A stretch of 23,174 bases of DNA, taken from Candidatus Sumerlaeota bacterium (GTDB taxonomy: Bacteria; Sumerlaeota; Sumerlaeia; JADFCT01). The DNA lies in the NCBI GenBank assembly GCA_026398575.1, contig JAPLSP010000471.1, positions 1-23,174 on the forward strand, read 5' to 3'. Below are positions 1,103 to 19,910 of this stretch, piece after piece. The position numbers were made by a program, and so were the translations under genes. The stretch's first letter is position 1. Every line of letters starts with the position of its first letter. The notes beneath the pieces are model-generated. The model had not been told where the DNA came from. It was given only the letters and a program-made list of their open reading frames with translations, and did not search any database.

Positions 1103-3562
1103 TCAGTCCTTGAGGCGCGGAGTGTTTGCGCTTTGGACCGCGATTTCAGACGTTGGCCGCCACCACAGGGACTGCCAATAGGCGCGGTCGGTGGCATAGA
1201 CGTCCACGGAGTCTTTCGCCAAGTTGAAATCGCGCGGGAGAATACCGTAGCGTTTCATTTCGCGGACATAGGGGAATTGCGGTTTGAAGCCGGCCATGTC
1301 GAATCTCTTGATTTCTTCCAGGCGGCTCTGAGCCTTGCGGATGGCGTCGAGCATATTGACATAATCCGGATGCTGCGTATCGGCGAATATAGCGGCGCCG
1401 CGCTCCTTGTCGCGGCATAGCCCTAAGCCGCCGGCGGATTTGGCCAGCGGCGCCATGAGGGCCAGGGATTTTTCCGGGCGCGTGAGATTCAGGGCCAGTT
1501 CTCCATCACCGATAGGGTTGCGGCCATGGCACGCGGCGCAGCGGCTTGTGATCGCGGCATCCAGCCTGACGGGCGACATCCCGCTGCCGAGAGCGGCGTA
1601 AGTCCCGGCGTAGGGGGCGCCGCTCTCGATCCAAAGTCGGACTTTTTTCAATTCGACCGGTGAGAGCGTGGCGCAGATGTTTTTCTCCAGGAGCCGTTGC
1701 ATCAACCGGCTGGCCGAGCTGCCGATGCCCCGGGGCGGCTTGTCGCCATCCTTGTCCCGCCCGTGGCTGACGAGGTCGCGGGACATCAGTCCCGTGTATG
1801 CGTGGGAGAAAATCGGGCCATGATCGCCGGTGAGGACCAATTTGGCGGCGCGTTGCTCGTCGTTGTGGCAGGCGACACAGTGCCGGTCCAAAATCGGCTG
1901 GATGTCACGCGGAAAATCAAACACGTCCGGTACGTCCGGAATTGGCTCGATCCGGCTGGGGGGATGGTTCACCGCCGCCAGCGGCCGGGCGGACTGTGCG
2001 CGGGCGGCGCCTGTGCGGTTTTCGTGGCAGCCAACACACGACAGGGTTTCTCCGGGCATGACCGTCAGAAAACTTTGCATGCGTTTGACCGAAAGATCGT
2101 GTTCGTCCAGCGCGACAAAGAACAGGCTGCGCAGCGCGGGCAACTCGATATACGCCGAGCCGTCCGGTTCCACCGGCACGGTCCCCAGGATGCGAGGCAA
2201 GGTGAAGGTGCCGCCGTAGCTGATCGGTTCCATCGTGCCGGAGTGGTTGACGGGCTTGGGCAGCGTTTCCATGACCAGCAGTTTCTTGATCTCGCCGGGC
2301 TTGACCCCTTGCATGTTGCGGCCGCGCATCACGTCTTGCAGCACCACGTAACCGGTCTTTTCACCCAGCATGGCTTTTGCGGGAATGACGTGCTCCCGGG
2401 CGCGGCGGCAGACGGGGCGCGGCTCCTGCAACCACGCTTGTGCGCCGCCGGTTTCGGGCAGCGCATAAATCTCCTCCGTGTGTCCGCGTCCATCCGTCAC
2501 ATAGAGGCTCCGCTCGCTGGCGAACAGCACGCAATCCGCGGCGACCGGATAGGGATCGCGGCACTCGCTCAGCCGCTTTGCGAACGGCTCGCCGAGCGCC
2601 AGTGGTCGGGCGAAGGACTGGTCATCCGGTCCGTGGTTGGGATCCACGATAGTCAACCGTCCGCCGTGCTCCTTCTTGCCATGACCGGGTGAAAAGACGG
2701 AGATGACTTTATCCGTGCCGGGAATCGGTTTGGCATCCAGCATCACCGTTCCGGGATGTTGGTTGCCGTAATAAACCATCTGCCCGGTCCCGTCCGGGTT
2801 CATGGTCCAGAGATGATGATAACTGACCCGGCTGCGGTCCACGTACTCCCAGCGCATGTACAGGATGCGCCCGTCCGGCAGCAGCCACGGCGTGTTGTCC
2901 TGCTCGCAATTGGCCGAGAGCGGGCGCACGTTGCCGCCTTGGGCATCGCACCGGTAGAGGATGGCCACCTGCGTGAACCAGCACTGCACCCAGCGATGGC
3001 AGCGCGAGGAACCGAACACCAGATCCCCATCCGGCAGATAGATAGGCTCGATGTCATCATACGGGCCGTCGGTAATCTGCCGCAGCCCGGCGCCATCCAG
3101 GTTCATCTCATACAAGTGGAAATACGGCGTGCCGCCCTTGCGATACGAGAAGAGCACCTTGCGTCCGTCGTAATGCACCTGGGGATCGCGCACCGAGCCG
3201 GTGGCGTCGGCGAGTAAATCCCGCGCCTGACCGGTGGCCAGGTCAAGCAGGCACAAGCGCGAACCGTTCTCCGTGTACATCGGGCGATCGGCGTCGCCGG
3301 ACTGATAACCAAAATTGGCGTACCAATGGCCGTCCTTGCCGGGGACGCGGGTGGTGAAGATGACGGTCGGCGCCTTCGCCAGCGGCCCCCGAAGCATGGC
3401 CGCCAGCAACTCCGTTGACGGCACGGCGGAAACCGGCGGGGGCGCCGCGGAAACGGGCGGAAGGGCGGACAGCAAAACCGCGGCGAAAAGGAAACCCAAC
3501 CGCAACACCCCGTTCAAGAAGCGCCGTCCCAGGCTGCCTGCGCTGATTTGCCGGCTGGACAT
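1103..3562 (-). CDS. Exported HzsA-related beta-propeller / multiheme c-type cytochrome protein
   Basis: About 819 residues from the ATG at 3562; a TTG two codons upstream is also open. I chose the ATG, although no good ribosome site is visible for either. The N-terminus is a signal peptide (hydrophobic VLRLGFLFAAVLLSALPPVSA). Residues ~60-370 contain TolB/WD40-like PD40 blades (repeated DG-x-x-(I/L)-x-(F/Y) and NxDGTG motifs). A middle segment, VPVEPDGSAYIELPALRSLF, is typical of the hydrazine synthase alpha-subunit middle domain (HzsA_mid). Three CxxCH heme-binding motifs follow: CVGCH (about residue 509), CVACH (562) and CAACH (675). Such proteins are common in PVC bacteria as periplasmic proteins of unknown substrate. 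Similarity to HzsA does not mean hydrazine synthesis or anammox, since no other anammox gene is present. Heme attachment implies export through Sec and a cytochrome c maturation system elsewhere. Confidence 0.8.
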   Translation of the reverse strand: MSSRQISAGSLGRRFLNGVLRLGFLFAAVLLSALPPVSAAPPPVSAVPSTELLAAMLRGPLAKAPTVIFTTRVPGKDGHWYANFGYQSGDADRPMYTENGSRLCLLDLATGQARDLLADATGSVRDPQVHYDGRKVLFSYRKGGTPYFHLYEMNLDGAGLRQITDGPYDDIEPIYLPDGDLVFGSSRCHRWVQCWFTQVAILYRCDAQGGNVRPLSANCEQDNTPWLLPDGRILYMRWEYVDRSRVSYHHLWTMNPDGTGQMVYYGNQHPGTVMLDAKPIPGTDKVISVFSPGHGKKEHGGRLTIVDPNHGPDDQSFARPLALGEPFAKRLSECRDPYPVAADCVLFASERSLYVTDGRGHTEEIYALPETGGAQAWLQEPRPVCRRAREHVIPAKAMLGEKTGYVVLQDVMRGRNMQGVKPGEIKKLLVMETLPKPVNHSGTMEPISYGGTFTLPRILGTVPVEPDGSAYIELPALRSLFFVALDEHDLSVKRMQSFLTVMPGETLSCVGCHENRTGAARAQSARPLAAVNHPPSRIEPIPDVPDVFDFPRDIQPILDRHCVACHNDEQRAAKLVLTGDHGPIFSHAYTGLMSRDLVSHGRDKDGDKPPRGIGSSASRLMQRLLEKNICATLSPVELKKVRLWIESGAPYAGTYAALGSGMSPVRLDAAITSRCAACHGRNPIGDGELALNLTRPEKSLALMAPLAKSAGGLGLCRDKERGAAIFADTQHPDYVNMLDAIRKAQSRLEEIKRFDMAGFKPQFPYVREMKRYGILPRDFNLAKDSVDVYATDRAYWQSLWWRPTSEIAVQSANTPRLKD

Positions 3563-3624
3563 GGGCAAACCATTGCAAATTCAGAGCCAGCGGGAAAGGC
3601 TAAAATCTGGGGGAAACAAGCCAT

Positions 3625-3864: not shown

Positions 3865-4209
3865 ACAAGCCACAGATCGAGAAAGTATTTTATACCGGCG
3901 GACAGAGCGCCGTCTATCAGAGCCAAACCTATGACGCGAACCGTTTGGTCGGCTCTCAAGCGGTAGCCATGAGCTCTGGAACAGCAGTTAATTCTCCTGT
4001 CCCCTTAATAATTCTCCTGTCCCCTTAATTAAAAAAAGGACATTCCCTTACGGGATAAAGTATGGGGACGTTCACCGCGAGATACCGATAAACGTCTTCG
4101 TGCCTCATAGAGAAGTTTGAACAAGCCTGAATCGGGCTTGACAACCGCGCAGGAATTAGAAGCAAAATGCTCCCCATGGAAGGCGAAATGGTTGGGCGTG
4201 AGAAATAAT
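3865..4209. other. Gene-poor stretch before the serine hydrolase-NamZ gene
   Basis: No convincing gene is seen. It contains a perfect tandem duplication of a 20-base unit, AATTCTCCTGTCCCCTTAAT (3990-4009 and 4010-4029), a doubled form of the RAYT-tail motif. A small inverted repeat, CAAGCC...GGCTTG, lies near 4122-4140. A TTG-initiated extension of the downstream gene to 4117 is open but has no recognisable protein features. Confidence 0.5.
3990..4029 (+). repeat. Tandem duplicated CCTGTCCCC RAYT-tail repeat
   Basis: Two identical head-to-tail 20-base units, each containing CTCCTGTCCCCTTAAT. They match the end of both RAYT remnants (CCTGTCGCC at 283, CCTGTCCCC at 18725). Confidence 0.8.
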
Positions 4210-6636
4210 ATGCGGCGACGGAATTTCATCAAGCTGAGCCTGGCCGGCGCATTTGCGCTGGCCTACCAGGGGTGCGCGCGCTTTCCGCTGGCGCCGGGGC
4301 GGTCGCCGATTCAGGCTTCGTTGCGCGAGGCGCTGCAGGCGACGCTGCGCGGCTGCGTCGAGCGCCACGAAATCCCCGGGGCGGTCGCGCTGGTGCAGAG
4401 CCACGGCAAGCAGCTGTTTCACGAAGCCTTCGGCGTGGCCTGCCTGAGAGAGGAAAGCCCGACGAAAAAGGTCGTGGCGATGCGCGCCGGCACGCGGTTC
4501 GACTTGGCGTCGCTGACTAAAATGGTGGCCACGACCACAGCGATCCTTACGCTGCGCGACCGCGGGCTGCTCGACCTGGATGACACGGTGGGCAAGTTCC
4601 TGAAGCCGATCGCGGACTCCAACAAGAAAGAGATCACCCTCCGGCAGTGCCTGACGCACTGCTCGGGACTGGCGCCGTTCCGGCTTTATTACAAGGAGCT
4701 GTGCGGGCGCGAAGCCTACCTGAAGGCCATCACCGCCGATCCCTTCCAATACCAGACCGGCGCCAAGTGGGTTTACAGCGACCTGGGATTCATCCTGCTG
4801 GGGCTGGTGGTCGAGGCGGTCGCGGGCGAGCCGCTGGACGACTACGCGCGCAAGCACATTTTCGAGCCGCTGGGGATGAAGCACACCGGCTACGTGCGCA
4901 TGGGGGCGGATGGAAAAAGGGATCCCACGTCGCTTCCGGCGGAAGCAACCTACTACGCGGCGACGGAGCGCTGCCCGTGGCGCAAGCGGCTGATCATCGG
5001 CGAGGTTCACGACGAAAACGCCTGGGCGCTGGGCGGCGTGGCGGGGCACGCGGGGCTGTTCTCGACCGCGGAAGATTTGTCCAAATTCTGCGAAATGCTG
5101 CTGGGCCAGGGCGAGGCCCGCGGCGCGCGCGTGCTGGCGCCGGATTCCGTCGCGCTGCTGTGCCGGCCGCAAATCTTGGGGCTAAATCCGCTGCAGTGCA
5201 TCGGCTGGCGGCTGCGCGCTTCACTGGAATCGCCCATTGGGTTCCTGGGCGGCGCGCGGGCTTTCGGCCATACCGGGTTCACCGGCACGAACATCTGGAT
5301 TGACCCGGATAACCAGGTCTTTTCGATCCTGCTGACCAACGCCGTGCACCCCGAGCGCGCCAGGATGCAGCCCGCCAACGCGCGCCGTGGAGTCGCCCGG
5401 CAAATCGTGGAGACGCTAAAGCAGGCGCCGGAAAAGGTGATGACCGGGCTGGACGTGCTCGAGGCGGAGGGCTTCGCGCGGCTGCGCGGCAAACGCGTGG
5501 CCGTGGTCACCAACCAGTCCGGGGTCAATGCCAAGGGAGCGCACGGAATTGACCTGATGACGAAGGCCGGAGTGAAAGTCACGGCGATCTTCACGCCCGA
5601 GCACGGCTTCGGCGTTGCGCCCGCCGGCGCGAAAGTCGGCGACTCCAAACGCGGCGATATCCCGATCTACAGCCTTTATGGCCCGCGTCGCGCTCCCGAG
5701 GAAAAGATGGCCGGCCTGTTCGACGTGCTGGTTTACGACATCCAGGACATCGGGGCGCGTTTTTACACTTACATCTGGACGCTGTTTTCGGCGCAGGCGT
5801 TCTGCGCGAAGGCGGGACGACCGCTCATGGTGCTGGACCGGCCCAACCCGCTGGGCGGCGCCAAGACCGAAGGTCCGGTGCTCGAACCTGCGTTTTCATC
5901 CTCCGTCGGGCTCAAGCCGCTGCCGACGCGCTATGGGCTGACCTGCGGCGAGTTGGCCACGCTCTTCAACCAGCAGGGCTGGCTCGAGGGCGGCGGCATG
6001 GCGGCGCTGGAGGTCGTTAAAATGCAGGGTTGGCGGCGCGAGATGCGGTGGCGCCAGATTGACTTGCCGTGGATCCCCCCCTCGCCCAACATCCCCACCT
6101 GGGACTCGGTCGCGGTCTATCCGGGCACGTGCATTTTCGAAGGGACGAGCTGGAGCGAGGGGCGCGGAACCGACGTGCCGTTCCAGATGGTCGGGGGGCC
6201 GGGGATAGACGAGAAGCGGCTGGCAAAAGAGTTGAACAAAATGGATCTTCCGGGCTGCCGGTTCCTGCCGATGGTTTTCACGCCGCGTCCCAACGCCGGG
6301 GCGCCCAAACCCAAGCTCGAGGGCAAGGCGTGCGGCGGAGTGTTCGTGCGCGTGGATGACTGCGATGCGTTTGATTCGGTGAAGACCGGACTGGCCGTGC
6401 TGATGACGATGCGGGCGCAGGCGCCGGATTCATTCAAATGGAGCGCCTCGCATTTCGACCGGCTGATGGGGACGGACACAGTGCGCAAGCAGATCGAAGC
6501 CGGGGCATCGCTGAAAGAAATCACAAAGCCGTGGGCCAAAGGATTGGAGGATTTCGAAAAGCTCCGGCGCACGGCGTTGATTTATAATTTCGCGGACATC
6601 CATGATAAGAGCGTGTGCGAAAAGAGCTTTATCTGA
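4210..6636 (+). CDS. Tat-exported putative lipoprotein: class C beta-lactamase-like serine hydrolase fused to NamZ (DUF1343) exo-beta-N-acetylmuramidase
   Basis: 808 residues from the ATG at 4210, chosen because it begins with a twin-arginine signal (MRRRNFIKLSLAGAFALAYQ) ending in a lipobox-like AYQGC (Cys22). Residues ~35-400 are a beta-lactamase/penicillin-binding-type serine hydrolase: SLTK (101-104, SxxK nucleophile), YSD (189-191) and HTGFTG (354-359). From ~412 a NamZ/DUF1343 domain begins: VAVVTNQSGV, FTPEHGFG (461-468), DIQDIGARFYTYIWTL, LDRPNPLGG and FEGTSWSEGRGTDVPFQ. NamZ (GH171) enzymes remove terminal N-acetylmuramic acid from peptidoglycan fragments. The fusion suggests combined peptide and glycan processing of cell-wall material outside the cytoplasm, possibly recycling; the hydrolase substrate is unknown. 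The last residues (SVCEKSFI and the stop) are encoded by a dispersed repeat, so the original C-terminus was probably near the preceding ALIYN. Confidence 0.85.
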   Translation: MRRRNFIKLSLAGAFALAYQGCARFPLAPGRSPIQASLREALQATLRGCVERHEIPGAVALVQSHGKQLFHEAFGVACLREESPTKKVVAMRAGTRFDLASLTKMVATTTAILTLRDRGLLDLDDTVGKFLKPIADSNKKEITLRQCLTHCSGLAPFRLYYKELCGREAYLKAITADPFQYQTGAKWVYSDLGFILLGLVVEAVAGEPLDDYARKHIFEPLGMKHTGYVRMGADGKRDPTSLPAEATYYAATERCPWRKRLIIGEVHDENAWALGGVAGHAGLFSTAEDLSKFCEMLLGQGEARGARVLAPDSVALLCRPQILGLNPLQCIGWRLRASLESPIGFLGGARAFGHTGFTGTNIWIDPDNQVFSILLTNAVHPERARMQPANARRGVARQIVETLKQAPEKVMTGLDVLEAEGFARLRGKRVAVVTNQSGVNAKGAHGIDLMTKAGVKVTAIFTPEHGFGVAPAGAKVGDSKRGDIPIYSLYGPRRAPEEKMAGLFDVLVYDIQDIGARFYTYIWTLFSAQAFCAKAGRPLMVLDRPNPLGGAKTEGPVLEPAFSSSVGLKPLPTRYGLTCGELATLFNQQGWLEGGGMAALEVVKMQGWRREMRWRQIDLPWIPPSPNIPTWDSVAVYPGTCIFEGTSWSEGRGTDVPFQMVGGPGIDEKRLAKELNKMDLPGCRFLPMVFTPRPNAGAPKPKLEGKACGGVFVRVDDCDAFDSVKTGLAVLMTMRAQAPDSFKWSASHFDRLMGTDTVRKQIEAGASLKEITKPWAKGLEDFEKLRRTALIYNFADIHDKSVCEKSFI

Positions 6637-6677
6637 GGTGTTTCCTGCATAAAAGCGCCGGCGGTTGGGCGTTTTAT
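6610..6677. repeat. Dispersed repeat copy with hairpin, overlapping the 3' end of the NamZ fusion gene
   Basis: AGCGTGTGCGAAAAG, then CTGAGGTGTTTCCTGCATAAAAG, then GGGCGTTTTAT. This closely matches the reverse complement of 14650-14725. The internal part (ATAAAAGCGCC ... GGGCGTTTTAT) can fold into a stem-loop and may act as a bidirectional terminator between the convergent NamZ fusion (ends 6636) and hicA (ends 6674). Confidence 0.7.
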
Positions 6678-6904
6678 AGCAATTCCTTAAACTGCGTGGG
6701 AGTGAGCTTCAGATCGTCAATGATGCCGTAAAGCGTTTTGGGTTTTATGTCGCGCCCGACATGTATGGGAATCACTACGCGCGCCTTGTCGGATGCGCGA
6801 TAATACACGGCATGACTGCCGGATTGCCGATCCAGCTCGAAACCCAGCCGGACCACGACGCGAACCAGATCCTTGGCCTTGATCTGCGGAAGAAAAGGAC
6901 TCAT
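6674..6904 (-). CDS. hicA: HicA-family mRNA interferase toxin
   Basis: 76 residues, the usual size for HicA/YcfA. The core double-stranded-RNA-binding-like fold is recognisable: the segment DLVRVVVRLGFELDRQSGSH contains the GSH motif with the catalytic-type His, followed by VIPIHVGRDIKPKTLYGIIDDL (P-x-H-x-G-x-x-I-K-x-x-T-L). HicA cleaves mRNA in the cytoplasm and is neutralised by HicB. Its ATG overlaps the TGA of hicB in an ATGA junction (6901-6904), so the two are translationally coupled. The order is antitoxin first. The gene looks intact. Confidence 0.9.
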   Translation of the reverse strand: MSPFLPQIKAKDLVRVVVRLGFELDRQSGSHAVYYRASDKARVVIPIHVGRDIKPKTLYGIIDDLKLTPTQFKELL

Positions 6905-7122
6905 GCGGCAATTCGAATCGGCTTGATGACAAGATCTTCAGAGGGGACAGTCTCGGAATGCGCCTTGAGACTTTCAATGTACAGCCTGATTGCATCCGTG
7001 ATGTTATCCACCGTTTCCTCGTAAGTATCGCCCTGAGAATGGCATCCAGGAAGCGCAGGGCACGACGCATGATATCCGCCGTCTTTTTCCCGTTCTATGA
7101 TGCTCGTGTAATGATACTCCAT
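6901..7122 (-). CDS. hicB: HicB-family antitoxin
   Basis: 73 residues from the ATG at 7122, which is preceded by a strong GGGAGG ribosome site 7 bases upstream. The longer open frame to 7242 has no such site. The sequence is a typical short HicB partial RNase H-like domain: YTSIIEREKDGGYHASCPALPGCHSQGDTYEETVDNITDAI. The residues G-Y-x-A-x-x-P-x-L-P-G-C-x-x-x-G-x-T are diagnostic. No separate DNA-binding domain is evident after it (it ends VIKPIRIAA), so autoregulation, if any, must use another route. Together with hicA it forms a type II toxin-antitoxin module. Confidence 0.9.
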   Translation of the reverse strand: MEYHYTSIIEREKDGGYHASCPALPGCHSQGDTYEETVDNITDAIRLYIESLKAHSETVPSEDLVIKPIRIAA

Positions 7123-7238
7123 GGCAAAACCTCCCTGCCTGCGATGATGACGATGGCAAAAACAATGACGATAGCGAGATAGGAGGAACGGCGCCTCTCT
7201 CGCACAACCAGCAGTATCACATGCCGCGCGTTGCCGGC

Positions 7239-7457
7239 TCAAGCCTTATTGAACGAAGCGAGCGCCCGCCGGTGGATGAGGACATTCTTTGACCAGCCGA
7301 ACTTGCGAGTCATGCGGATGTAGAACTCGCGCTCCAAGGGTTCCTTGCAGCGCTGGAGAATGATGAGATTGTGAGTCCAGGCGATTAGTGCAACCAGTGG
7401 TTGCACTTTTGCAGCGCTGCAATAGGCCAGGTATAATTCCAGGAACAGGTTATTAAA
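7239..7457 (-). pseudogene. Remnant of a YhcG-like (DUF1016, PD-(D/E)XK) nuclease, N-terminal region
   Basis: Reading the minus strand from 7457 to the TGA at 7239-7241 gives 72 residues that include AWTHNLIILQRCKEPLEREF followed by YIRMTRKFGWSKNVLIH. This is the conserved N-terminal (DUF1016_N) signature of YhcG-type proteins. After VLIH the frame ends in RRALASFNKA and stop, where the family normally continues with a Q-I-E linker into the C-terminal nuclease domain. Upstream, an in-frame TAA at 7458-7460 lies inside a reverse RAYT-tail motif. The gene is therefore broken on both sides: no start codon and no nuclease domain. YhcG proteins are often accessory to mobile or restriction loci, which fits the neighbours. 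Confidence 0.7.
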
Positions 7458-7627: not shown

Positions 7628-7669
7628 TAATTATTCACCTGTCCCCGAAATTGTGTCCCCGAAATTGAC
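7628..7669 (+). repeat. CCTGTCCCCGAAATT RAYT-tail repeat
   Basis: TAATTATTCACCTGTCCCCG followed by AAATT, then a second GTGTCCCCGAAATT. It stands just downstream of the MBL gene end (7743) and is inverted relative to the copy at 12601-12626, so the two copies bracket the three-gene module. The rest of 7464-7742 shows no convincing gene. Confidence 0.65.
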
Positions 7670-7742: not shown

Positions 7743-8795
7743 CTACAAGCATTGAGGGTGAAAATTGGAGTCCCCCTGCTTTCGATTCATTATGTCCTGC
7801 CTGCGGCGGCCAAGATTCTCAATTTCATAAGTGCCCGTGCCAATGCGGATACGGACTGTTCCATGACAACCGGCACAGGAACCCCTGCAAAGACTAGAAC
7901 GCGAATAGGATGGCATATCAAATCCTTTCTCTTCAGCAACAGAGCGTATATGATTATGGCATCTGGCGGTCATCTGTGTGCACAGGATTTCCGCACTACA
8001 GTCCTGGCAGGCATCGAAGGCCTCTTGACATGGGTGCGAATGTCTATTTTGGGTTCCAACGGAGAAGATTACATGTTTCGGATTGTGCAGTACATCCTTC
8101 AACAGCCAGACATAATCGCTGTAAACGGTATCGGCTGACGAAAGAATGCCGCCATGATGGGGCGCTACCATTACATCAGGTCGGAATGCTTCGTATTTAT
8201 TGAGGGCTAGCAACGCAGGTCGGTCGGCGTCAGCCGGCATAAGGAAAATCTGGCCACCACAATCAAGAGCAAGAATAGCGCTGCAGCGATTGGTTGGGCT
8301 GGCAACGCCACTTTCGGTGTATGCGCCTAGTATGTTTGGAAAATTCGGGGCCAGCATATAGAGAACGGATACGCCGCGTTTATAAATAGGGTAAGCTCGC
8401 CCCAATTTTGGAACGTACGCCTGATAAATTTCGCCCGTGAATCGTTCGCATGCGCCCTCTTTGCAGATTACGTCATATATTTTCAGCGCAGACGGCTCCC
8501 TGTCGTAAGGGAAATAAATGGCACGAATTCTATTAGAAAAGGCATTGATGATATCCAGTGCACCATTGTAATGATCGCTGTCGTTATGCGAGACAACAAG
8601 TGCCGCGATCTCCGGTTCGGAATTCTCAGCAAGGAATTGTAGGGGAAGGCAGTCATTCTTTCCCCGCACAGGGCCACCATCAATGACAACAAAGGCTGGC
8701 GGGGTACCGTGTTCCCCGCGAAAAGAGAGTATTTGGCAGAGGCCCTGCCCGACATCGAAGACGCGCAATTCTACTGTAACTTGTGCGTCATCCAT
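7743..8795 (-). CDS. ComEC/Rec2-type metallo-beta-lactamase-fold hydrolase with Cys-rich C-terminus
   Basis: 350 residues. It starts ELRVFDVGQGLCQIL, the DVGQG signature of the ComEC/Rec2-like MBL subgroup. VVIDGG (36-41) and SHNDSDH (69-75, the HxDxDH metal site), ADAD (188-191), PHHGG (212-216) and HSHP (252-255) follow. There are no membrane segments, so it is a soluble cytoplasmic enzyme rather than a DNA channel. Residues ~256-320 are Cys/His-rich and end CRGSCAGCHGT (C303, C307, C310), suggesting an extra metal site. MBL proteins of this type are phosphoesterases or nucleases in several systems; the substrate here is unknown. It starts 21 bases after the stop of the TIGR04255-like gene, with a weak ACAGG ribosome site, so they form one operon. 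Confidence 0.8.
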   Translation of the reverse strand: MDDAQVTVELRVFDVGQGLCQILSFRGEHGTPPAFVVIDGGPVRGKNDCLPLQFLAENSEPEIAALVVSHNDSDHYNGALDIINAFSNRIRAIYFPYDREPSALKIYDVICKEGACERFTGEIYQAYVPKLGRAYPIYKRGVSVLYMLAPNFPNILGAYTESGVASPTNRCSAILALDCGGQIFLMPADADRPALLALNKYEAFRPDVMVAPHHGGILSSADTVYSDYVWLLKDVLHNPKHVIFSVGTQNRHSHPCQEAFDACQDCSAEILCTQMTARCHNHIRSVAEEKGFDMPSYSRSSLCRGSCAGCHGTVRIRIGTGTYEIENLGRRRQDIMNRKQGDSNFHPQCL

Positions 8796-8816
8796 AGGAC
8801 GGACCTGTCGTAATTA

Positions 8817-10355
8817 TCAAGAGACCGAGGAGGAAGAGGATTCATCTCTTAGGCCACCCCATAAATCCGCTGGCGCAGAGGGTAGCTGTTCGAGCGAGCG
8901 CACGGGCAGCGCTTTACGGGCTTTGGCAAGTTGCATTTCTGTAAAGGGCCGCCTGCGCTCCCAGTCTGTGATACCAATCAGCCTAGCGTTCTGCCACTCG
9001 CGCAGCGTCACTGCTTCGAATAGAGTGCCTGGGGGAAGCCCCAGAAAATCGCTAGGGACCTTATTAACGGCGGCGTTAATGCTTTCTATCCTTCCGTCGT
9101 CCCATTTTATTCCAATAATAGTACCCCGACGCCGAGCAAAACGTCCTACTTCTCGCATACGAACAGGTGTTTCGAATCTGTACGTCGCAATATCAATGCT
9201 ATTTTCAAAGAGGCGCCATTGGGAATAATCCTCAACCTGCATCTGATGCGGAAGCAGTGCCAGCAAGTACTGGAAGCGGGAGTGAATCTCCAATGCCCAA
9301 TTGGACCTGGCCTCTATGGGCGTATTGCCCTCTCCGTAGTATTCGCTAACATCCGGATTTCCGAATTTCCACTTATGAATTGATGTATGGAATTGATTAA
9401 CAAAAGGCATTGACTTCTTAAGCTGATAAGTAGGCGCATCTACGAAGGGGGGAGTAATTTCCGTAAAGTAGATGGTATCACTTAGGCAGTAGGATTCCGT
9501 GTAGCGCGGATCATTCTGCGGTGCCGAGGCATGCAAAGCATAGGGAGCCTTGTAATGAGCCGAAGCGCCTTGCGCGGAACTTGGAAGGTCGGCGGAAGCA
9601 AGAGCCATTTTAGGGTAAGATATCGTTTCGGACGCAAGGGACTCGGAATTGCCCGCCAGCGATATCGCATAATCCCATTGCAAGCGAAAGCGCCTTACGC
9701 CGTCCTGAAGACCGGCGTCTTGTAATATCTTCAGGGTAAGCTTATCGTCAGGACAATCTGTCTCCATTAAAACATCAAGATTGAACTGCCTGAGCGAGGC
9801 CGGGAAACCGGCTGGTATATCCGGAAGAATGCGCAAGTAATCCTTAATCTCATCGGCTGATTGGCTAGCCGGTATCTCTAGTAAATCAACATAAATAAGT
9901 TTCGCACTGTTGATGCCCTGGGGCTTGAAAAGATCGCAGTAGAGCTCATGCAGAATCAGAAACTCCTCGGAGAGTTCGTGATATCCGGGATGATCAGATC
10001 CTTCACGCAAAAGACTGAGCGCCAGCACGTCGTCGGAGAGATGAAGCCAGAACTTGGTATCCCTTTTGCGAGCTGATGCCGAAACGATACGATCCACTTT
10101 TCTTACTTCCTTCAGGATATCCGGGCGGCCTTTTTCGAATTTCAGCTGCACATTTCTTTCGACTCTGCAGTTTTCGAAAGCGTAGCCTCGATCCTTGACA
10201 GCATCCTCATATTTCTCGCATGTGTCTCTCCCCCAAGGCGCCTTGGTTTCGGAAGGCCGATAGGACAGCTGGACTACGGTCTCCAGTACCGGCGGCTTGG
10301 CCATCTGGAAGGCAGCAAGTGGAGATAGGGCAATGGCAGGAGGGGGCGTGTTCAT
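8817..10355 (-). CDS. TIGR04255-like protein with C-terminal extension, partner of the MBL hydrolase
   Basis: 512 residues, no signal peptide or membrane segment, cytoplasmic. The N-terminal ~200 residues resemble the sporadically distributed TIGR04255 family: KPPVLETVVQLSY (20-32) as the PPxxE opening, FWLHLSDDVLALS (102-114), a tyrosine/leucine helix, then LIYVDLLEIP (153-162). That family is normally ~250-280 residues; here a further ~250 follow, including an SH3-like stretch RRGTIIGIKWDDG (409-421) and a Ser-rich end. The function of TIGR04255 proteins is unknown. A promoter (TTGATC, 18 bases, TATCAT) lies so close to the ATG that the leader would be about 7 bases with no ribosome site. 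It is read with the MBL gene downstream and the restriction gene 120 bases upstream. Family call is moderate; tight pairing with the MBL gene is seen directly. Confidence 0.55.
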   Translation of the reverse strand: MNTPPPAIALSPLAAFQMAKPPVLETVVQLSYRPSETKAPWGRDTCEKYEDAVKDRGYAFENCRVERNVQLKFEKGRPDILKEVRKVDRIVSASARKRDTKFWLHLSDDVLALSLLREGSDHPGYHELSEEFLILHELYCDLFKPQGINSAKLIYVDLLEIPASQSADEIKDYLRILPDIPAGFPASLRQFNLDVLMETDCPDDKLTLKILQDAGLQDGVRRFRLQWDYAISLAGNSESLASETISYPKMALASADLPSSAQGASAHYKAPYALHASAPQNDPRYTESYCLSDTIYFTEITPPFVDAPTYQLKKSMPFVNQFHTSIHKWKFGNPDVSEYYGEGNTPIEARSNWALEIHSRFQYLLALLPHQMQVEDYSQWRLFENSIDIATYRFETPVRMREVGRFARRRGTIIGIKWDDGRIESINAAVNKVPSDFLGLPPGTLFEAVTLREWQNARLIGITDWERRRPFTEMQLAKARKALPVRSLEQLPSAPADLWGGLRDESSSSSVS

Positions 10356-10368
10356 AGCGACGAGGAAA

Positions 10369-10398
10369 ATGATAGGTTTGAGCAGGCATGGAGATCAA
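10369..10398 (-). promoter_or_regulatory. Putative sigma70 promoter of the TIGR04255-MBL operon
   Basis: On the minus strand, TTGATC (10398-10393), an 18-base spacer and TATCAT (10374-10369). The ATG is 13 bases after the -10, implying a nearly leaderless mRNA. Pattern match only. Confidence 0.35.
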
Positions 10399-10475
10399 AG
10401 GAATTCTTCTGTAGATCAAGTTAAATCGTCGGAAGATTTGAGTGGGAATGCAGGATACGCTCGCCCAACCTGCTA

Positions 10476-12058
10476 TTAGGCCAGTTTCATAGCGATATGC
10501 TCATCGAGGATTTCGCGGACTGTCAGGGGGATGATTACTTTGTGGGAGCGTTTGAAGAAGGCGCTGATTTCTTCGAGAGCGTCGGAGGTATAGGCGAAGG
10601 AGACGAAGAAGCCTTTGGGGCTGTGTTCGCTGCGCATGAGGACGGCTTGGAAGGCGTCTATGTCGGGGCGGCCAACCTTGTCCTTTTGTTTGACTTGGAT
10701 GGGATACCAGATATTCATGAAATCGAAGACATCCTTCTGTTTATCGGGCGCGGCGCCCACGGGGAAGATGCGGCCGTCTATGCCCATGTCGCCGACTTGG
10801 GTCTTGTTGGGGATGCCGCCGAGGGCGATGACGGCCCAGTTCTCAAACTCGAAGGGCGGGAGAGCGCGGAGTTTTTCTTCGGTCCAGGGCAGGTCGCGCA
10901 CGACGAAGCCGCGTCCAACGCGCCAGAGTTTCTCGTCTTCAGGCAATCCGCACGCGTCGCGCATGCGCTTGGCCATGCGCGGCAGGCAGTGGGCGAGATG
11001 TCTATGCCGATCCACTGCCGGTTGAGTTTCTGCGCGGCGACGAGCGCCGTGCCGCATCCGCAGAAGGCATCGAGAATAATGTCGTTTTCGTTGCTGCTGG
11101 CTTTGATGATGCGTTCGAGGAGAGCGAGGGGCTTTTGTGTGGGGTAGCCAAGACGCTCTTGCGCCATCGAATTGATCGGCGGGATGTCGGTCCACACGGC
11201 CTTAAGCGGCATTCCGACCCCGAGGTAGCGCTTATATTGAGGGAATCCTGGGCCACTCGAAGTGCCTTGGCGCTTGTGCGGCGTCCAATAGATTAAGCCA
11301 TTTTCATCTAAAAGATCCAGCTTTTCCTGGGTCGTTAAATCTTTTAGTTTTCTTTCGGGATGGACTCCCTTGAGAGCAATCATGGGAACGGCCCAGTGCC
11401 TACCGATATTGGCCGGATCAAAGCCACGCCATGGCTTCGACGAGTCTCCATCAGCAGTTCCTGCGCCGGTTAAGTCTGAGAGTCGGTAAGTGCCCTTCTC
11501 GTCTTTATATCTATACTTCGTATCAAGATAGCTCTCCTCATACGGTTGGAGAATTGGATTCCATACATGATCTGCGCTGCCGGTATAAAAAAGGATGTTG
11601 TCGAAGTTCCTCCCATATTGTGACGCGTCATTGTGGGAAGGTGTCCGTTGCCAGATGATATCATTCTGAAAATTATTCTCCCCGAAAATCTGGTCGAGCA
11701 TGACCTTGACGTAGTGGGACGCGTGCCAGTCGCAGTGGTAGTAGAACGAGCCGGTTTTCTTGAGGACGCGGGCGAGCTCGACGCAGCGCGGGCGCATGAA
11801 TTCGATGTAGGCCTGAGTCGAGGCGTGGCGGTCTTCGAAGGCGCGCTTCTCCTTGGTCTCGCCCCAGAAGACTTCGTAGTTGCGGTTGGAGTTGAAGGGC
11901 GGATCAATGTAGATCAGGTCCACGCAGGCGTCGGGGAGTTTGGCGAGTTGTTCGAGATTGTCGCCGCAGAAGATTACGCGGGTATCCACGAAAGACGACG
12001 GCTTGCCGGGCTTGGCGGGTGGCTCGGCGGCTTCTTTTGTCGCCTTGGACTTAGACAT
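10476..12058 (-). pseudogene. DNA methyltransferase (N4/N6 type) fused to a PD-(D/E)XK restriction endonuclease domain, broken by a frameshift
   Basis: From the ATG at 12058 the first frame encodes a beta-class amino-methyltransferase: DPPF (52-55, motif IV) precedes the target region, and DAFCGCGTA (330-338, AdoMet motif I) lies near the end, followed by [12 protein letters not shown] (to residue 360). At about 10977-10981 one base is missing. The other frame then continues [18 protein letters not shown] and runs to 10476. This part carries an Mrr-like endonuclease: [24 protein letters not shown] and the IQVKQ core. Rejoined, the product is ~527 residues, a single-chain restriction-modification enzyme. 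As read, the methylase core is intact but gains an unrelated 66-residue tail and the nuclease is not in frame. Either a real inactivating mutation or a sequence error could explain this. No slippery heptamer is seen at the junction. Confidence 0.8.
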
Positions 12059-12258: not shown

Positions 12259-12600
12259 CTACTGCATCTTGAACTGGCGTTTCACAAAATCCATCCAGAG
12301 TTTCGTGTGCGCCGGGCTGTTCTTCTCAATGCCCGTGTGAACCTGGCACTCGATGCCTAACGCGTCCATCTTCTCTTTGAGCGCCTTGCCGAAGCGCGGG
12401 TGATGAATCCCGGTGTTTTGGTCCCTGATCGGCGTTTCCAGCGTGCTGCTGTAAACCAGCAGGGCCGGGGCGTCGTCCTTGGTCAAGTGGGTGAGCGGCG
12501 AGCACTCCTCGAATAGTTGATACTTTTCAGGGGGCAACTGATCCAGGTTGTCCGGTTTCATCCGGAACAGCATCGCCAAGGCGCCGATCTTGTACGTGTC
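12259..12600 (-). pseudogene. C-terminal remnant of an alpha/beta hydrolase (esterase-like)
   Basis: About 112 residues remain before the stop at 12259. They begin around YKIGALAMLFRMKPDNLDQL and contain SPLTHLTKDDAPALLVYSST and GIHHPRFGKALKEKMDALGI. This looks like the C-terminal part of alpha/beta-fold esterases found in PVC bacteria, where the strand before the loop carries the acid residue and the HH segment the catalytic His. The nucleophile-bearing N-terminal half is absent: upstream of ~12600 the sequence becomes the CCTGTCCCC repeat and then the IS element. The truncation point at the repeat suggests recombination or insertion there. Not expected to be active. Confidence 0.6.
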
Positions 12601-12626
12601 TATTTCGGTATTTCGGGGACAGGTTA
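12601..12626 (-). repeat. RAYT-tail repeat interrupted by the IS4-family element
   Basis: The reverse complement reads TAACCTGTCCCCGAAATACC. Its last 11 bases on the plus strand, GGGACAGGTTA (12616-12626), are repeated at 14496-14506 as the target-site duplication, so the IS landed in a pre-existing copy of this repeat. Confidence 0.8.
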
Positions 12627-12644
12627 GAATGGCGCTAAGATAAG
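12627..12644. repeat. Left terminal inverted repeat of the IS4-family element
   Basis: 18 bases, perfect reverse complement of 14478-14495. It contains the transposase stop codon (12635-12637). Confidence 0.93.
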
Positions 12645-14014
12645 GGTTTCTTGTATCGGTTCCTATGCATGATCTCCTTGAATTCGGATCGAGGTTTATT
12701 GAGCAGTTGGTAATCTTTTGGCCGTCTTTTTCTGGCGCGCGGCTCAACGCGGTTGGGCCGGTAGGGTGTCCGATCTGCGGCAATGCATGACAGCAAATCC
12801 TTGAACATTTTGCCGCGCTTGCAGCCGCTGCCCACAAGCGCCATTTTCGGCGCCCACTGGCGGATGGCCGCTACCGCGCCGGCAAAGCTGATCCTGACAT
12901 TATCTACCTTGTATTGTTGTGACGCCTGCGCCATCAAGGCGCGCACAAGGTTGTAGGCGATCAGACGCATCGTCAGTTCCTTGCGGATCATCGCCGGCGT
13001 TTTGCAGCGCAACACATCCATCTTCATCGTGATCTTGATGTCGCGCAAGAATAATTCGACCCGCCAACGCCGGAGATATAATTCAGCGAACGCCTCGGCC
13101 GGATACGCCACGGAATCGAGCAGCGTGGTCGCCACGATAATCTTGTCAGTGCGGAATCCCGGCCATTGGACTTGAATGGTAATGTGCCGGACAAGCATTG
13201 AAGAAGGAAGTTGATTCCATTCCTCGAATGAAAGCCACTTGGGTCTCCAAGAAGACTTGATCCACTCAACCAGGACGTCATTCTTGCCCAGCCGCCGGAT
13301 TTCCTTGACTCCCACGGACCGCCGCGCATGCAATCGCATGACGCTATCCACGCCCCGCTTCAGGAGTATCCAGAAGTCGGCGAAACTGCAGAAGCCCCGG
13401 TCCGCCAGCATCACATCGCCGCTTTCCAGCAAATCCCACATCTGCCGCCACAGCGTTCGTTCGTCCACCGTCTTGGGACCATAGGCCACGTTCAAGATCG
13501 CGCCAGTGGCCAGTAAAAACAGCGCCACCAGACGCATCAGAGGAAATCCGCAACCCGGCTTCTGCTTTTTAGATTGGGGATACGCTTTTTGATTCGCAGG
13601 CGTGTCCGGCATCGAGAGCGTTGTTCCATCCGCCACTTTGACATTTCTTCCATGCCAGCAGGTTGCTTCATAAGAGCGCAGGCCTTTGACGCTATTGTCA
13701 AAGGCCTTTTGCGCATAGCTCTGCGGCAGCCGACACCGCGCTTGGCAATAGGCGGAGGTGTTGGATGAGATCTTTTTCTTTTTTTGGAGCGACCGCCATG
13801 CTTGGGCCTGGCACAAGGATTCGCGGCAGGTTTGCGCGGCGCTGAGTGTTTGGGAGAGAAAAAGCCAGAAGATTTGCGGCGGGCTAAAAACGCGTTTCCG
13901 AGACTTGGCCGGGGATTCGGGCAGTGCGATAAGATCGCCGGCCAAGGCTTCCAGATCGCAGGGTGAGGCGCCGCTCAACTGGCGGACGTGGGAGGAAAAG
14001 GAACCGAGGGACAT
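12635..14014 (-). CDS. IS4-family DDE transposase
   Basis: 459 residues from the ATG at 14014, which has a near-perfect AGGAGG ribosome site 7 bases upstream. A longer TTG-initiated frame to 14107 would overlap the promoter and is rejected. The RNase H-like catalytic domain is complete: KVADGTTLSMPD with Asp129, VMLADRGFC with Asp205, and YLRRWRVELFLRDIK with Glu320. The last fits the IS4 signature Y-x2-R-x3-E-x6-K exactly (Y313, R316, E320, K327). The enzyme cuts and pastes the element at its inverted repeats. The tail is strongly basic. The frame ends inside the left inverted repeat, so the element has no spare sequence on that side. Confidence 0.93.
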   Translation of the reverse strand: MSLGSFSSHVRQLSGASPCDLEALAGDLIALPESPAKSRKRVFSPPQIFWLFLSQTLSAAQTCRESLCQAQAWRSLQKKKKISSNTSAYCQARCRLPQSYAQKAFDNSVKGLRSYEATCWHGRNVKVADGTTLSMPDTPANQKAYPQSKKQKPGCGFPLMRLVALFLLATGAILNVAYGPKTVDERTLWRQMWDLLESGDVMLADRGFCSFADFWILLKRGVDSVMRLHARRSVGVKEIRRLGKNDVLVEWIKSSWRPKWLSFEEWNQLPSSMLVRHITIQVQWPGFRTDKIIVATTLLDSVAYPAEAFAELYLRRWRVELFLRDIKITMKMDVLRCKTPAMIRKELTMRLIAYNLVRALMAQASQQYKVDNVRISFAGAVAAIRQWAPKMALVGSGCKRGKMFKDLLSCIAADRTPYRPNRVEPRARKRRPKDYQLLNKPRSEFKEIMHRNRYKKPLS

Positions 14015-14027
14015 GGAACGCCTCCTG

Positions 14028-14067
14028 AAAAAAGAGATTGACGCGCGAAAAAAGGGATTGACGCGCG
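14028..14067. repeat. Two tandem 20-base units in the transposase leader
   Basis: AAAAAAGAGATTGACGCGCG (14028-14047) and the same with one change, GGG for GAG (14048-14067). They lie in the transposase 5' leader and contain the -35 of the divergent promoter. They might bind a regulator or alter transposase translation. Confidence 0.8.
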
Positions 14068-14107
14068 CTGAGCATTCATGTATATATACATGAATTCTTT
14101 GTGTCAA
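14058..14107. promoter_or_regulatory. Overlapping divergent sigma70 promoters of the IS element
   Basis: Plus strand (passenger gene): TTGACG at 14058-14063, 17 bases, TATATA at 14081-14086. Minus strand (transposase): TTGACA at 14107-14102, 17 bases, TATACA at 14084-14079. The two -10 boxes share bases, so polymerase cannot occupy both at once. Both have ideal spacing and near-consensus boxes. Confidence 0.7.
14074..14095. promoter_or_regulatory. 22-bp perfect palindrome over both -10 boxes (putative operator)
   Basis: ATTCATGTATA followed by its exact reverse complement. It covers the -10 regions of both divergent promoters, the classic position for a dimeric repressor. The regulator is unknown; the passenger protein is a candidate by position only. 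Confidence 0.55.
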
Positions 14108-14149
14108 GGAGGAAATTTCACGCCTGACGAAACGTCTAATTCAAGCCTG

Positions 14150-14467
14150 ATGGACCGTTACGAGAATCTAAAACAGTCACTTCTCAACCTCGGTCCAATT
14201 GCTCAAGGGAGCATCTGGCCGCGCATGATTCGCCGGAAGGATTCGCGCGGGCGAATGAGGACTTTCGGGCCATACTATCAGTGGACGAAAAAAGAAAAAG
14301 CCAGGACGGTGCTCGTGAACTTGAGCGCGTCAGAAGCCAAAATCTATGGCCGCGCGATCCGCGAACACCGGAAAATGGAAAAAATCCTGGCAAAAATGAG
14401 GGCTACTGCGCTGAAAATGCTTGAGTTGGCCATCAAAAAATGGCAAAAAAGGGTGAGTGGGAATTGA
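14150..14467 (+). CDS. Small basic passenger protein of the IS4-family element (possibly DUF6788-like)
   Basis: 105 residues from the ATG at 14150. The open frame reaches back to 14078, but the promoter -10 at 14081-14086 puts the transcript start near 14093, so the earliest ATGs are unlikely. An AAGGAGGA site at 14106-14113 has only an ACG codon at the right distance (14120), so the true start is uncertain. The protein is rich in Lys and Arg. It has a central GSIWPRMIRRKDSRGRMRTF-GPYYQWT segment, then a helical C-terminus. This outline recalls short DUF6788-type proteins (GPYY then a KT-V-L-S strand), but the usual Cys cluster is missing. It lies wholly inside the inverted repeats, so it travels with the transposase. 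Function unknown; DNA or RNA binding is plausible from the charge. Confidence 0.65.
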   Translation: MDRYENLKQSLLNLGPIAQGSIWPRMIRRKDSRGRMRTFGPYYQWTKKEKARTVLVNLSASEAKIYGRAIREHRKMEKILAKMRATALKMLELAIKKWQKRVSGN

Positions 14468-14477
14468 GAAAAGAGCG

Positions 14478-14495
14478 CTTATCTTAGCGCCATTC
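14478..14495. repeat. Right terminal inverted repeat of the IS4-family element
   Basis: Perfect reverse complement of 12627-12644, followed directly by the 11-bp target duplication (14496-14506). Confidence 0.93.
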
Positions 14496-18705: not shown

Positions 18706-18796
18706 AAACCAGATAATTTAATCACCTGTCCCCTAAATTACCTGTCCCCTACAGGACGATGAAAACCAGATAATTTAATCACCTGTTCCTTAAATT
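18695..18796 (+). repeat. RAYT-tail repeat with tandem duplication
   Basis: A 35-base block from CAGGACGATGAAAACC to TTTAATCACCTGT occurs exactly twice (18695-18729 and 18752-18786). CCCCTAAATTACCTGTCCCC lies between the copies and CCTTAAATT follows the second. It starts in the last codons of the RAYT remnant. Confidence 0.9.
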
Positions 18797-18823: not shown

Positions 18824-19897
18824 TCATTCCTTTTTAGATTCAATGGCGGTAATAACGATGGCTTTACCTTCAGGTCGTTCTTCGTCTCTGAAAAGATAGG
18901 GATTGCCTTCAAGCGTTCGTATACAGGCTTTTTCGCATGGCTTCATATTGCCGGCACCCTTCAGTTGATAGATCTCGCGAGCTTTATTTTTAGGATCGTC
19001 CATTTGATAAACACGAATTAACAGGGGGGAAGTATTGGACCAGGTTGTGATATAGCCTTTCTTGCCATTGCTCCACGCCGAGACTCCAGCCACATCATTC
19101 TGCGTTATGCCAATGTCAAATGGCGCCCAATTACTCCCGTCGTTGCTGGACCAGCAGGCGATAGATTGCTTTCGCGCAAGCTTGTCAGCACTGATTGCGA
19201 AGCAATAAGCAACGGCTTGAAAGGACATCAAAGATGGATTTTCCCCTCGTCCCAGCATCATAGCGTTAACGAGGCGACTGGTACTAGAAGTTGCTATATT
19301 GTCTGATCTTCCAACCCAAATTCCTCCCATGATCTCAGCTCCAGCCAAAAGATATATAGCATTATGCCGAACCGCAGTAGGATAAACAGAAACAGAATAA
19401 TCATAGTCTGGGGGTTTATTGCTACATAAGATGGTTCTTAATCTGCTCCATCTAGTTTTGTCAGGATGTGCGAGATTAATATACCCTATCTCAAAGTAAG
19501 AAGCCCCCCCTTGCATCTCAACCACGACGAAGACTTCCTTTTCAGCAGCATTGCATGCGATAGCGCAATGAGGTGGCCAGCTAGGGAAAATAGAGTCTAG
19601 TTTTTCACTGTATATACAAGTTGGGTTGGACTGTTCCAGTATCAGCTCATGTCCTTGAGCATAGAAAATCTTGCCTCTTAGCGACAAATCAAATTGAGGA
19701 CTGCGGGTGGTAGATTTAGGAAACTCCGGTTCGGTAACAACCACCAGGAAATTTCCCTCTGAAGTTGCTACATCCCATTGGGACTTAGGACCCAATCTCT
19801 GAAGGAAGTCCTTGCCATATGAATAGCTATTGGCAAGCGCCAGGAGCAAAACAAGACATATGTGCCAGATGGTGACATTAAGGCAATTGACATTCAT
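18824..19897 (-). CDS. Exported protein of unknown function (possible propeller-like repeats)
   Basis: 357 residues from the ATG at 19897, chosen because AGGAG stands 7 bases upstream and it opens with a signal peptide (CLNVTIWHICLVLLLALANS). The longer frame to 20032 overlaps the upstream gene. I do not recognise the family. The mature protein alternates short strands with repeated W/G turns (VVVTEPEFPKS, IACWSSNDGSNWAPFDIG, GKKGYITTWSNTS), which recalls BNR/sialidase-like beta-propellers, but no Asp-box series is clear enough to claim. It has several Cys residues (CIYS, HCAIACN, PCEKACIRT), fitting disulfides outside the cytoplasm. It begins 13 bases after the stop of the giant gene, so both are probably one transcript. 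Its base composition is AT-richer than the left half of the window. Confidence 0.6.
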   Translation of the reverse strand: MNVNCLNVTIWHICLVLLLALANSYSYGKDFLQRLGPKSQWDVATSEGNFLVVVTEPEFPKSTTRSPQFDLSLRGKIFYAQGHELILEQSNPTCIYSEKLDSIFPSWPPHCAIACNAAEKEVFVVVEMQGGASYFEIGYINLAHPDKTRWSRLRTILCSNKPPDYDYSVSVYPTAVRHNAIYLLAGAEIMGGIWVGRSDNIATSSTSRLVNAMMLGRGENPSLMSFQAVAYCFAISADKLARKQSIACWSSNDGSNWAPFDIGITQNDVAGVSAWSNGKKGYITTWSNTSPLLIRVYQMDDPKNKAREIYQLKGAGNMKPCEKACIRTLEGNPYLFRDEERPEGKAIVITAIESKKE

Positions 19898-19910
19898 TTG
19901 ATTTCTCCTA

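Follow-up and report, generated by a model that had tools for sequence, protein, structure and literature searches.

A metallo-beta-lactamase gene and its fused partner

The window analysed here is a 23,174-nucleotide stretch of DNA from Candidatus Sumerlaeota bacterium (contig JAPLSP010000471.1), in which two codirectional genes separated by 21 bases encode a stand-alone ComEC-type metallo-beta-lactamase (MBL) and a larger partner protein (Table 1). The initial annotation had grouped these genes with an adjacent methyltransferase-endonuclease gene as a three-gene mobile defence module. The tight pairing of the two is real and belongs to a recurrent and apparently undescribed module, whose components we denote T (a TIGR04255 protein), X and MBL. 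The module comprises two genes in the window and three where T and X are unfused, and excludes the methyltransferase.

Table 1 Features of the T-X-MBL locus and its surroundings (window coordinates)
Feature	Position	Strand	Remarks
MBL, 350 residues, stand-alone ComEC-type, predicted nuclease effector	7743-8795	-	
HNDSDH metal-binding motif, residues 70-75	8571-8588	-	conserved in relatives
C-terminal extension beyond the ComEC domain, residues 272-349, with C272, C279, C310 and C349	7749-7982	-	cysteines invariant in 45/45
Partner, 512-residue T-X fusion	8817-10355	-	N-terminal half aligns with separate T genes, C-terminal half with separate X genes
T domain (TIGR04255), residues 17-232	9660-10307	-	possible AdoMetDC-like fold (predicted)
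Low-confidence T/X linker, residues 236-307	9435-9650	-	pLDDT <50
X domain, unnamed family, residues 311-480	8916-9425	-	family alignment A4; pLDDT 70-92 in blocks of ten
Possible sigma-70-like promoter of the pair	10369-10398	-	9/12 consensus match
N6/N4 DNA methyltransferase part of frameshifted methyltransferase-endonuclease gene (neighbour)	10778-12058	-	PF01555, 8e-49
Mrr-type endonuclease part, other frame (neighbour)	10476-11195	-	PF04471, 4.6e-4, just under cut-off
HicA (6674-6904) and HicB-like (6901-7242) toxin-antitoxin pair (neighbour)	6674-7242	-	PF07927, PF15919
YhcG (DUF1016_N) remnant (neighbour)	7242-7457	-	PF17761, 1.1e-14
IS4-family element (neighbour)	12627-14495	-	18-bp perfect inverted ends, 12627-12644/14478-14495
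CCTGTCCCCGAAAT repeat, copies starting at 282, 3996, 4016, 7638, 7652, 12610 and 18725	282-295, 3996-4029, 7638-7665, 12610-12623, 18725-18738		

The fold of the MBL is closest to ComEC, and it carries the HxDxDH and HHG motifs of ComEC-type MBLs, the former intact as HNDSDH, as had been noted from the sequence. It shares fold, metal motif, and PHHG and VGxxNxxxHP motifs with the C-terminal MBL domain of ComEC/Rec2 (PDB 9ic4), from which it differs in lacking the membrane competence domain and in bearing approximately 80 additional C-terminal residues with four invariant cysteines. About nine further residues relative to ComEC directly follow PHHGG, where the predicted model is less confident (predicted local distance difference test score, pLDDT, ~76). 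The ComEC/Rec2 family model TIGR00361 matches only through profile positions 440-660, at 33.3 bits where more than 190 are required.

A profile search with the MBL returned at least 507 proteins at E ≤ 1e-6, 120 of which were listed; among these listed matches, 45 (the window's included) score at least 157 bits, the next scores 114, and ordinary ComEC proteins follow. An alignment of the 45 (A3) holds H70, D74, H75, H213, H214, H254, C272, C279, C310 and C349 invariant throughout, with D189 present in 44 and D72 in 38, so the Cys-rich end singled out by the initial annotation is a conserved feature. The four-cysteine motif is absent from five ComEC-like comparison proteins (L015, L016, L032, L041, L046). 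Since the A3 profile was seeded with five sequences that already carry the motif, its invariance in 45/45 describes a subfamily and is not independent proof of one. On sequence criteria, the MBL represents a distinct four-cysteine subfamily. Searches of genomes with the A3 profile gave matches in 10/294 and 73/235, mostly to ordinary ComEC-like proteins; among Myxococcota, a match spanning most of the profile occurred in 3/73 genomes.

The N-terminal half of the partner was confirmed as a TIGR04255 member, matching over residues 18-231 at 32.8 bits (cut-off 30), and all eight stand-alone T proteins tested also score above this curated cut-off (39-80 bits). TIGR04255 (NCBIfam 'sporadTIGR04255') has no function given and is named in no paper of the literature searched. 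The window's T differs from other members in being fused to X and in lacking their conserved C-terminal end. The C-terminal half, previously left unassigned, proved to be a protein family of its own, X. By alignment, the partner is thus a fusion of proteins encoded elsewhere as separate adjacent genes. The X domain of the window protein has no Pfam, NCBIfam or PADLOC match, and X proteins of relatives likewise have none in Pfam (L005, L009, L111), NCBIfam (L005) or PADLOC (L005); a search of solved structures returned nothing for T and, for X, only matches of E 0.17 and above.

With the full-length partner as query, only the protein itself appeared among the matches listed, where candidates were limited to 0.55-1.75 times the query length and most separate T and X genes (~230-290 residues) were thereby excluded. 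The same query found nothing in viral, plasmid and phage collections, and T from L005 found nothing in the plasmid collection. The partner model (mean pLDDT 69.3; predicted template modelling score 0.46) is confident for T at residues ~22-160 and X at ~311-480, and less certain for the rest of T (161-235). Structural comparison rows (VIA) for the partner cover its T domain. Several MAFFT row sets aligned T or X rows with the other half of the partner; of 447 random choices of rows and trimming screened for placement, the model uses the largest set that was well placed, A11 (12 T and 8 X rows). The choice of rows affects this model and not the homology claims.

Recurrence and linkage of T, X and MBL

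Scanning a collection of 84,980 species genomes with the conserved CTQxT..C pattern, which is the four-cysteine motif itself, yielded 16 stretches, of which 12 were confirmed as loci. In seven of the 12, all planctomycete (L003-L009), T (~265 residues) and X (~240 residues) come first and the MBL third. Elsewhere, X is joined to an FG-GAP N-terminus upstream of the MBL without T (L012), or a gene of ~720 residues stands upstream (L010, L011, L013); L014 is a partial match.

Linkage was also checked with X alone as query, which is blind to the MBL. X occurred in at least 2/392 Planctomycetota genomes (one being the seed), at least 5/248 in the class of G004, of which two were seeds and one was known already, and at least 6/246 in the order of G003, including one seed and one very weak match, and in 0/140 Myxococcota, a set that held no positive control; for each genome a limited number of candidates was scored. 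Nine contigs were reached in this way (L025, L106-L113). An MBL lies directly downstream of X in six (L025, L106, L108, L109, L110, L112), cut by the contig end in L106, and T lies directly upstream in six (L025, L106, L107, L109, L110, L112), the contig of L107 stopping after X. The order T-X-MBL recurs in Planctomycetota. GspE of the window is at most 49% identical to proteins of 149 sampled Planctomycetota genomes, and its host may thus lie outside that phylum. In an MBL tree of 68 rows, the window protein groups (support 98/96) with the T-X-MBL and X-MBL loci L003-L009, L012 and L025.

The flanks of several relatives contain mobile, phage or restriction genes: a phage integrase (L004), phage capsid and minor tail proteins (L006), an MmeI-type restriction fragment (L007), a large serine integrase with a phage-type metallophosphoesterase (L109), tail proteins (L110), and a phage-type primase with a GmrSD_N protein (L112). 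No housekeeping operon context, which would have spoken against a defence role, was noticed around the relatives. GC content at third codon positions (GC3) in the window is 0.55 for T, 0.51 for X and 0.49 for the MBL, compared with 0.73-0.83 for four core-like genes.

Other partners of the MBL and of TIGR04255

The four-cysteine MBL family also occurs with other partners, and the MBLs concerned form separate groups in the MBL tree, namely those with nucleoside triphosphatase (NTPase)-type partners (L010, L013, L039), histidine-kinase-like ATPase (HATPase) and response-regulator partners with a methylase (L001 from Hymenobacter and L002 from Burkholderia, both plasmids), and methylase-like partners (L029, L030; judged by eye and from a TaqI_C match below threshold). 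The L031 MBL has HATPase and response-regulator partners, with no methylase in view by eye. NTPase-type genes lie directly upstream of the MBL in L010, L011, L013 and L039 (Myxococcota and Planctomycetota); that of L010 matches AAA_22 above cut-off, that of L013 has sub-threshold NTPase matches only, and that of L011, where the MBL is split over two open reading frames (ORFs), was judged by eye. Neither L010 nor L013 has a PADLOC match. The alignment leaves the last cysteine unmatched in L013, L025, L030 and L031.

The plasmid operons (L001 1895-7029, L002 1839-7008) encode an N6-methylase with a weak match to mad2 in L002, a HATPase/histidine-kinase-like protein, a response-regulator-like protein (labelled from L002 only) and an MBL that retains all four cysteines, and make up another candidate for a defence set. 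Opposite H254, L001, L002 and L031 carry Asn, Asn and Thr, respectively, and metal binding by these three MBLs may, judging from the alignment, differ.

TIGR04255 is itself commoner than the module, with 39 matches in 31/199 Planctomycetota genomes. Two of 30 fetched TIGR04255 loci (L090, L096) contain T-X-MBL. In four of the other 28, the third gene encodes a PIN protein (L073, L075, L077) or a PemK/MazF toxin (L069); the remaining loci are unassigned, and some of them had the wrong ORF picked as T. These PIN/PemK operons resemble the module in having T first, a small middle gene and a nuclease-type effector last, and differ in that the middle gene does not match the X profile and the effector belongs to a ribonuclease-type toxin family. 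Six loci (L071, L072, L074, L079, L080, L086) encode, by eye, a protein with a (T/S)(Q/H)xCD motif within two genes after TIGR04255; the four tested have no Pfam match.

Because members of the MBL family are also encoded downstream of AAA/NTPase genes and of methylase-kinase-regulator sets, the MBL looks, from gene content, like an effector with exchangeable inputs. A broader proposal, which we put forward tentatively as a possibility, is that the four-cysteine MBL is a new exchangeable immune effector family with at least three and perhaps four inputs and no recognised protease, and that TIGR04255 is a general sensor also driving PIN and MazF-type effectors. The inputs would be TIGR04255-X, AAA/NTPase, N6-methylase-HATPase-response regulator and, perhaps, the weakly matched methylase-like one, and the four-cysteine tail would be a possible metal- or redox-based switch. 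If this were true, two unknown families would gain a role at once.

Proposed mechanism and alternatives

Anti-phage defence by regulated nucleic-acid cleavage is the best-supported reading of the locus, and the T-X-MBL gene set is probably an undescribed anti-phage system. We consider it reasonably likely that T-X-MBL is a mobile module whose MBL cleaves nucleic acid once T-X signals infection, stopping the phage or the infected cell. Before that signal the MBL would be held inactive or untargeted. Its substrate would most likely be DNA, given that the MBL is structurally nearest to the nuclease domain of ComEC. T may be the sensor, since effectors of several kinds are found downstream of it, X may serve as adaptor or inhibitor, and control of the MBL would operate by direct contact with X and T. 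The suggestion in the initial annotation that the partner senses and the MBL cuts, within a mobile defence module, gains from the recurrent pairing, from the phage, integrase and restriction neighbours of several relatives and from a ComEC-nearest MBL with weak matches to defence MBLs, features from which we infer the defence role itself; the inclusion of the methyltransferase and the delimitation by repeats fall away.

Several observations weigh against this interpretation. The association with mobile, phage and restriction genes is suggestive and comes from flank inspection without a matched control, and in L003, L005, L008, L009 and L012 no mobile gene was noticed in flanks that were partly scanned. 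The pair is AT-richer than the core-like genes, as initially claimed, but low GC3 is not peculiar to it, as two large unassigned ORFs at the right end of the window have GC3 of 0.44-0.45. The window MBL sits on a long branch (2.17), leaving its place in the tree unsure, and the window copy is the only T+X fusion seen and could be an altered copy. Among the contigs found through X, the MBL of L108 is only a 103-residue fragment, X of L111 is followed not by the MBL but by a DUF6364-PIN pair, a small ORF and then a PIN protein, and L113 has only two weak X-like ORFs and no MBL. X was not found in plasmids and phages (L005 query) or in viral contigs (L109 and L110 queries), each searched with one or two single proteins. 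T and X of the window and of L005 match no model in PADLOC (PADLOC-DB of 2023), and no PADLOC system is recognised there, weak matches to LmuA, RTasMBL and PDC-M48B being confined to the MBL. To these may be added the replacement of the residue aligned to H254 in L001, L002 and L031.

An alternative that we regard as rather unlikely is a tripartite toxin-antitoxin or addiction module, with the MBL as toxin, X as antitoxin and T as chaperone or conditional regulator, which would stabilise a mobile element and not sense phage. The PIN and PemK/MazF genes in the third position of TIGR04255 loci without X, the X gene that precedes the DUF6364-PIN pair in L111 and the phage genes adjoining some module copies are all consistent with addiction, whereas X and T are large for antitoxins, the X proteins scanned contain no Pfam DNA-binding domain, and the other MBL partners (NTPases and methylase-kinase-regulator sets) are more typical of sensing than of addiction. 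It is improbable that the MBL instead hydrolyses a small molecule (a cyclic nucleotide, a phosphorylcholine-like compound or another phosphodiester), such as a messenger whose synthesis or sensing involves T-X. Some sources name MBL relatives 'competence protein ComEC', but an ordinary DNA-uptake or housekeeping MBL that landed by chance beside a TIGR04255 gene is scarcely credible for a rare protein that lacks the ComEC membrane part, belongs to its own four-cysteine subfamily and is repeatedly linked to T-X in divergent genomes, and a housekeeping or competence role was rejected on context.

Relation to known defence systems

Among published systems, the regulated-cleavage module proposed here comes nearest to Hachiman, AVAST and Canu with their gated MBL pro-nucleases. 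Defence islands and transposases are reported near some of HamM (Hachiman), Avs1a (AVAST), CanC (Canu) and the Lamassu and DRT MBLs (PMC12799240). Like the window's protein, these are soluble ComEC-like MBLs encoded as separate genes beside unrelated sensing modules, and the effector has moved between systems (PMC12799240). The window module differs in that no trypsin or caspase partner is recognised, its MBL carries the four-cysteine C-terminal extension and its partners are TIGR04255 and X. A gated pro-nuclease would carry two disordered insertions over its active site; comparison of the window MBL with ComEC shows only the approximately nine extra residues after PHHGG. Profile matches of the window MBL to LmuA, RTasMBL, PDC-M48B and Avs1a are weak, that to Avs1a (NF041809) scoring 15.7 bits against a cut-off of 420.

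These extra residues, in a less confident part of the model, would fit a pro-nuclease activated by proteolysis as in HamM, Avs1a and CanC, with X or T as an unrecognised protease, but the invariant residues of the X and T alignments include no Ser or Cys and no protease family matches T, X or the window neighbours scanned (family scans only, which a remote fold could escape), and we judge this explanation very improbable.

Relative to the gated systems, the partner set of this MBL-effector module is new, and no protease is recognised in it. Recent work has shown that MBL nucleases moved between immune systems with an activating protease, and T-X-MBL suggests a parallel branch without a recognised one. 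The module also offers a testable function, as sensor or regulator, for the uncharacterised TIGR04255 family, introduces X as a new family of partners, and directs attention to mobile elements of planctomycetes as a source of undescribed systems of phage competition.

Surroundings of the pair in the window

The methyltransferase-endonuclease "fusion" of the initial annotation consists of two ORFs in different frames. Both match a single annotated gene in one frame on a Cellulosimicrobium plasmid (L114, locus 809-2569), through residues 29-359 of the first ORF and 97-141 of the second, so the window copy is frameshifted. No such gene was seen beside T-X-MBL in the relatives' flanks, which were read by eye and partly scanned, and it was rejected as a module part on these two grounds.

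The inverted CCTGTCCCC repeats said to bracket the module are real (15 nt, perfect). The 14-nt CCTGTCCCCGAAAT motif is dispersed, with seven copies in the window at up to two mismatches where 0.2 are expected, and looks like a mobile or repetitive extragenic palindromic (REP)-type repeat. As the copies are scattered across the window, the repeat marks no module boundary, and bracketing was rejected.

A shared promoter was likewise only partly upheld: the 9/12 consensus match is present, but it is one of eight such sites in the region, where shuffled sequences give 4.2 (standard deviation 1.9). The HicBA pair, the YhcG remnant and the insertion sequence (IS), an IS4-family transposase, were all found as neighbours as described. 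A short ORF beside the IS4 element (12259-12837) has no Pfam match; by eye it looks like the last part of an alpha/beta hydrolase, possibly truncated by the IS at ~12627.

The two low-GC3 ORFs at the right end of the window (18824-20032 and 19911-23165) have no Pfam match. A single ORF at 4117-6636 encodes a beta-lactamase-type serine hydrolase fused to NamZ exo-muramidase N and C domains. In both the window (1103-3568) and L005 (3285-6005), the module contig also encodes a protein that contains the hydrazine synthase alpha middle domain (PF18582).
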